Below are positions 59,386 through 59,503 of a stretch of 64,000 nucleotides of DNA, piece after piece. The notes under the pieces are model-generated. The model was not told the origin of the DNA and ran no database searches. It was given only the letters and a program-made list of their open reading frames with translations. Location: the NCBI GenBank assembly GCA_003132205.1, contig PKWY01000048.1, positions 74,605 to 138,604 of the forward strand. Reading direction: 5' to 3'. This DNA is from Acidimicrobiaceae bacterium (GTDB lineage: Bacteria; Actinomycetota; Acidimicrobiia; Acidimicrobiales; RAAP-2). Position numbers and translations under genes: made by a program. The number at the start of each line of letters is the position of its first letter. Position 1 is the first letter of the stretch.

Positions 59386-59411
59386 CAAAAAACCCCCGCG
59401 AGAGCGGGGGC
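59386..59411 (-). terminator. Rho-independent terminator/attenuator in the leuA leader
   Basis: Minus strand reads CCCCCGC-TCTC-GCGGGGG-TTTTTT between leader peptide and leuA. Confidence 0.9.
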
Positions 59412-59433
59412 GTCGGGCGAGCGGAGGCTCACC

Positions 59434-59469
59434 CTATCGAAGCAGTAGCTCGCTCTGGCCAAATGTCAT
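59434..59469 (-). CDS. Putative leuA leader peptide MTFGQSELLLR
   Basis: Minus strand ATG ACA TTT GGC CAG AGC GAG CTA CTG CTT CGA TAG; three consecutive Leu codons just upstream of the terminator. Confidence 0.85.
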   Translation of the reverse strand: MTFGQSELLLR

Positions 59470-59475
59470 AGACCC

Positions 59476-59503
59476 ATTGTACCTCTCTTTTGGGTTCTGT
59501 CCA
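59476..59503 (-). promoter_or_regulatory. Predicted leuA-leader promoter
   Basis: Minus strand TGGACA - 16 bp - TACAAT; -10 ends 6 bp before the leader ATG. Confidence 0.6.

Follow-up and report, generated by a model that had tools for sequence, protein, structure and literature searches.

A probable leaderless, ribosome-mediated leuA attenuator with adjacent, non-overlapping hairpins in the Acidimicrobiia

Organization of the leuA leader

Within the window, the whole stretch of 64,000 nucleotides (64 kb) of an Acidimicrobiaceae genome that was analyzed, leuA is preceded on the minus strand by a promoter, a short leader ORF that ends in Leu codons, and two consecutive hairpins, the second followed by a U tract. 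Together with the Shine-Dalgarno (SD) sequence of leuA, these elements are present base for base as the first-pass annotation had described them:

59476..59503, minus strand: promoter, TGGACA-N16-TACAAT (-35 box TGGACA at 59503-59498, -10 box TACAAT at 59481-59476); the -10 box ends 6 nt 5' of the leader ATG
59434..59469, minus strand: leader ORF, MTFGQSELLLR*, 11 codons; start codon (ATG, 59469) at the predicted transcription start, stop codon TAG at 59436-59434
59440..59448, minus strand: regulatory codons CTA CTG CTT (Leu-Leu-Leu)
59415..59434, minus strand: hairpin A, GGGTGAGC-CTCC-GCTCGCCC, 8 bp; its 5' arm begins with the final base of TAG; putative antiterminator
Between hairpin A and terminator T, minus strand: linker GAC, an A-T gap of 3 nt
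59387..59411, minus strand: terminator T, GCCCCCGC-TCTC-GCGGGGGT (59411-59392), with T6 tract (59392-59387)
59358..59365, minus strand: SD sequence of leuA, GGAAAGGA; a purine-rich motif is found in relatives too
57676..59352, minus strand: leuA, 2-isopropylmalate synthase, start ATG at 59352

The leuA product matches NF002991/TIGR00970 above cut-off, which identifies it as 2-isopropylmalate synthase. The leader architecture is not due to chance: 4000 dinucleotide shuffles of the sequence upstream of leuA failed to recreate it even once, also when no Leu codons were required. The leader fold is also more stable than those of shuffled sequences (z = -2.64). The leader promoter is the sole sigma-70-like match in 3.1 kb, and the 64-kb window contains, besides T, just one other strong intrinsic-terminator-like site. 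CTA, the first of the regulatory codons, is among the rarest Leu codons of the four neighboring coding sequences, where it accounts for 1 of 142.

A small divergent ORF (59532-59684, plus strand, GTG start, about 50 amino acids, one likely membrane segment) faces the leuA promoter. Similar sequence lies beside leuA in relatives, and a search of this ORF against NCBIfam gave no family match. The sequence following the U tract, GTTTCTCGC (in the window GTTTCCCGC, 59386-59378), is kept within the genus and not beyond it.

Conservation of the leader across the class

The leuA loci of 41 genomes of the same genus and of 80 named relatives were sampled, yielding about 110 upstream regions, a few of them cut by contig ends. 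These genomes place the window in Acidimicrobiaceae, nearest to metagenome-assembled genomes from bog and palsa. The complete architecture was found in 98 of the approximately 110 regions, corresponding to 90 distinct leaders across the class Acidimicrobiia. The terminal run consists of three or four Leu codons in 93 of the 98 leaders and of two in the remaining five, while the part of the ORF 5' of the run varies in length from 5 to 13 codons. Alignment of these regions, on which the first-pass annotation had made its reading depend, showed that both the Leu codons and the terminator are conserved among relatives.

A covariance model built from 46 leuA leaders was run on 340 high-quality genomes of the class, 241 of which gave matches at E <= 1e-4. 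Both hairpins covary, with 96.5% of the cells paired, versus 88.1% in shuffles and 38 to 51% with slid partners, and with two-sided changes across the hairpins numbering 80 versus 20. Pairs changed on both sides make up 9 of 15 over the two helices and 6 of 8 in hairpin A. A second match in the window's own genome (L112) was rejected as a chance hit, being the terminator of an HU-like gene.

Among the 26 genomes without a strong match to the model, 13 also lack this leuA, and the others carry leaders that are decayed (L212, L213) or slightly altered (L214), or have a different leader or promoter. The leader is altered in at least four members of the genus, in some of them through loss or disruption of the Leu run. 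Both hairpins are kept in L213, where the Leu run is lost (TRLRQ*); the ORF is broken in L212, L214 reads EFLL*, and everything is lost in L024. Families of the same order (L217-L222) have a Leu-run leader before leuA that is devoid of a terminator (e.g., MSFLLDLRLLSPAA*) and resembles the LEU element considered below, which suggests that two control designs replace each other within the class.

The window gave no match when scanned against Rfam 15 (4227 families) at gathering thresholds, and six loci compared with Rfam at E up to 5 returned only ar14, at chance level and far below its threshold. No report on leader peptides of Acidimicrobiia was found in the open-access literature searched.

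Regulatory codons follow the downstream gene

The covariance model, built solely from leuA leaders, also matches the same layout before ilvB, leuS, the gene for citramalate synthase, and a second type of leuA. NCBIfam supplied the identity of the downstream gene at ten loci, and ilvB in L147, leuS in L148, and the leuA type in L142 were recognized from their sequences. Inspection of the model matches by eye gave the leader peptides. Before ilvB, these are MKFASTVLVIH*, MNEITAARTVVVVLV*, MPCQLNLVLIT*, MQRVGILVVT*, and MTTTSFVLILM*, with runs of Val, Leu, and Ile codons such as ...LVLI, VVVVLV, and ILVV. Those before leuS (MNLNCMGLGLM*, ...TATLLLT*, MRWNLLLR*) and before the second leuA type (MSQNLLLT*, MSSTRFELLLT*) contain Leu codons, and the citramalate synthase leader carries a run of Ile codons (...SIAIIIIS*). 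Thus, from member to member of the family, the regulatory codons agree with the pathway in which the downstream gene acts, with one exception, L146 (~240-400), where the hairpin pair precedes a class V aminotransferase gene and the codons of the leader, MKLTRRSNK*, do not obviously match the gene.

In the genus of the window, the hairpin that lies between leader and terminator at ilvB is weaker and differently built. The ilvB of the window's own genome (L180, C21) is preceded by a leaderless-type leader, MMTRFSILSVVVGAWRR*, with Val codons (read by eye) and a strong terminator, and this leader is predicted to be a second branched-chain attenuator of that genome. Leaderless-type branched-chain leaders with terminators precede ilvB elsewhere in the window's order as well, and about 21 relatives have short Val/Leu/Ile-rich leaders followed by a terminator before ilvB. 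No attenuator was seen before leuS in the window's genus at the loci where the gene start is visible (L190, L192).

Codons that follow the amino acid of the gene fit the prediction of ribosome stalling and not that of a protein-binding element, and this swapping is the strongest evidence for function that sequence comparison offers here. Since the Leu leader and terminator are conserved far beyond the species and the codons change with the gene, control of leuA by Leu-tRNA supply, as proposed in the first-pass annotation, is the best reading of the data. It is very likely that leucine is sensed through stalling of the ribosome.

Start of the leader ORF

The first-pass annotation had also suggested that the leader may be translated from a leaderless mRNA. 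The spacing of the promoter agrees with this: in the 45 distinct leaders from close relatives, the distance from the end of the -10 box to the leader ATG or GTG is without exception 6 nt (38 leaders) or 7 nt (7 leaders), while the bases between the -10 box and the start codon, and their flanks, vary. No SD sequence is evident before the leader start in relatives. The mean distance between the -10 box and the transcription start in Streptomyces lividans is 6.3 nt (PMC8079986), to which the spacing of 6 to 7 nt corresponds. In more distant families the spacing is 5 to 10 nt, with some noise because, out of several spacings, the -10 box with the best score was taken, and the drift to 8 to 10 nt indicates that some leaders there may carry a short 5' untranslated region.

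It could be argued from these wider spacings that the mRNA starts further upstream and that the leader ORF uses an unusual initiation region. Given the constant 6 to 7 nt amid variable flanks in close relatives and the lack of an evident SD sequence, this alternative is very unlikely, and the leader ORF is, with high likelihood, leaderless, for which the promoter spacing is strong though indirect evidence.

Geometry and folding of the two hairpins

The position of hairpin A is tied to the end of the leader ORF. Counted from the first base of the stop codon, it begins at -3 to +4 nt in all 89 distinct two-hairpin folds, with the last base of this codon as the most frequent starting point, and the gap between A and T is 0 to 5 nt. 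Partition functions with the ribosome masked at different positions gave a mean P(T) of ~0.9 at every position. A and T therefore coexist thermodynamically, and equilibrium folding reveals no switch, the probability of T being much the same whatever the ribosome state; the mutually exclusive structures that the first-pass annotation had expected from folding did not emerge, as T forms in every modeled ribosome placement. The low P(T) values of L007, L014, L020 (one state), L030, L037, and L049 apparently stem from the choice of terminator coordinates. In each of the 97 leaders examined, forcing the first three bases of the 5' arm of T to pair upstream costs 4.9 to 10.8 kcal/mol, with a median of 8.6. 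Neither the ribosome-masked partition functions nor the forced upstream pairing thus revealed an antiterminator that competes for bases, the adjacent, non-overlapping hairpin being all that was found. With no such competition found, the element is classed as an attenuator-like variant rather than as the classical form.

An alternative fold in which GCGAG pairs with CTCGC had also been put forward. This pairing is possible, yet it is neither stable nor conserved: GCGAG corresponds to the Glu/Asp codon that precedes the run of Leu codons and is replaced by GAC or GGA in relatives. The downstream sequence GTTTCTCG was likewise discarded as a partner of GCGAG, since it reads GTTTCCCGC in the window and is absent outside the genus. 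The main claim of the earlier interpretation is therefore correct, and its alternative fold is not.

Proposed mechanism and alternatives

Taken as a whole, the element is most likely a ribosome-mediated transcription attenuator that controls leuA and carries its sensor ORF at the very 5' end of the transcript. Ribosomes cover about 12 nt beyond the codon in the A site. With such a footprint, the 5' arm of A would be hidden under a ribosome that has reached the stop codon and accessible when the ribosome sits on the first Leu codon. When Leu-tRNA is ample, the ribosome would reach the stop codon and block A, so that T would form and transcription would stop before leuA. When Leu-tRNA is short, the ribosome would stall at the first Leu codons, and hairpin A, left free, would fold immediately upon synthesis, directly abutting the base of T. 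In the step that would complete the switch, the adjacent A may prevent timely closure of T in the RNA exit channel, allowing leuA to be transcribed.

Hairpin A is, on balance, probably the antiterminator. That it acts by adjacency and not through undetected base-pair competition is put forward tentatively, its chances being somewhat short of even. More speculative is the general form of this idea, a position-coded attenuator in which no bases are shared and a hairpin folded 0 to 5 nt from the terminator blocks its closure. Such a device would depend on conserved geometry alone (codons to A, stop codon to A, and A to T), and any amino acid could therefore be served by a change of codons.

Hairpin A could instead protect or strengthen T, either in a tandem-hairpin terminator or as a pause hairpin, with read-through upon starvation arising in another way, such as collision between ribosome and polymerase. 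Pause hairpins are usual in attenuators, where they let the ribosome catch up. Double adjacent hairpins are, moreover, described as terminators (PMC8355165). This role is nonetheless unlikely for A, because its 5' arm would be removed by a ribosome at the stop codon and freed by one at the first Leu codons, which would give control of the wrong sign. Classical Yanofsky attenuation would require an antiterminator that competes for the 5' arm of T and is missed by simple folding, being kinetic, tertiary, or pseudoknotted. Known attenuators of this kind do use overlap, including that of ilvBNC in Corynebacterium glutamicum, with three shared bases (PMC11857589), and a few members of the present family permit a slight overlap (e.g., L016) or allow an ACCU before A to pair with the 3' end of T. 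Set against this are the cost of upstream pairing in every leader, the high mean P(T) in all ribosome states, and the lack of any such pairing shared between families, so that hidden competition is possible but fairly doubtful.

The same gene and the same type of Leu-run upstream ORF characterize the LEU element (PMC1262725), and the terminatorless leaders of some related families (L217-L222) recall it as well. By that model, a conserved pseudoknot, possibly protein-bound, would act on translation initiation of leuA. Pairing between the Leu run and the SD sequence is, however, no better than in shuffles (-6.2 versus -6.8 kcal/mol), a strong U-tract terminator is present, and the codons swap at other genes, which makes this model highly improbable for the leader studied here.

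Significance and comparison with known systems

A ribosome-mediated leuA attenuator of this type would bring leaderless attenuation to an entire class of actinobacteria that are uncultured and little studied, with many independent members, and would add an RNA family that Rfam 15 does not contain. The sensor is very compact (~84 nt), and its codons appear to be naturally swapped between leucine, isoleucine, and branched-chain genes. With its non-overlapping hairpins, the element offers a direct test of whether shared bases are required between an antiterminator and its terminator.

Enterobacterial leu and trp attenuators combine a leader peptide, cognate codons, and an intrinsic terminator with an SD-led leader and overlapping 1:2, 2:3, and 3:4 hairpins. 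The first three features are shared by the element of the Acidimicrobiia, and the last two are not. The attenuators of ilvBNC in C. glutamicum (PMC11857589) and ilvB1 in Mycobacterium tuberculosis (PMC13236596) likewise have a short upstream ORF, there with codons of the LVVI type, and the leader of ilvBNC starts one nucleotide from the start of the mRNA (PMC11857589). In both, an antiterminator hairpin follows the codons, the terminator adjoins it, and stalling leads to read-through; hairpin A is placed in the same way (PMC11857589, PMC13236596). For ilvB1, the same stall/stop logic is supported by reporters with mutated codons (PMC13236596). The antiterminator and terminator of these systems are proposed to be mutually exclusive (through the three shared bases in C. 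glutamicum), in contrast with the lack of overlap in the Acidimicrobiia.

The LEU element of Actinobacteria has in common with the present leader a Leu-run ORF 5' of leuA. It is described as having a pseudoknot and a base stem between Leu codons and SD sequence, with no terminator reported (PMC1262725), whereas the leader of the Acidimicrobiia has a terminator and no base stem was found in it. The mycobacterial polycysteine ORFs (Canestrari 2020, as cited in PMC13236596) are also leaderless regulatory ORFs with a run of cognate codons; as presented in that citing source, they differ in the amino acid, cysteine, and in acting by translation attenuation and not through an intrinsic terminator.

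The closest precedents are found in Streptomyces. Mutations in the leuA leader of S. coelicolor, as cited in PMC1262725, gave a behavior unlike classical attenuation, and by analogy these mutants would count against the attenuation reading, although the leuA leader of Streptomyces (S. lividans) is without a typical terminator. For S. lividans, leaderless Leu-run leaders have been published before leuA (LeuL1) and leuS (LeuL2) (PMC8079986). LeuL2 is followed by a hairpin and a U run and so resembles the element of the Acidimicrobiia, while LeuL1 lacks the typical intrinsic terminator that the leuA leader of the Acidimicrobiia possesses. The passages of that work considered here do not mention a further hairpin anchored at the stop codon, which the leuA leader of the Acidimicrobiia has class-wide. 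Leaderless Leu leaders are thus already known from Streptomyces, and what is new is the class-wide tandem-hairpin form in which the two hairpins do not overlap.
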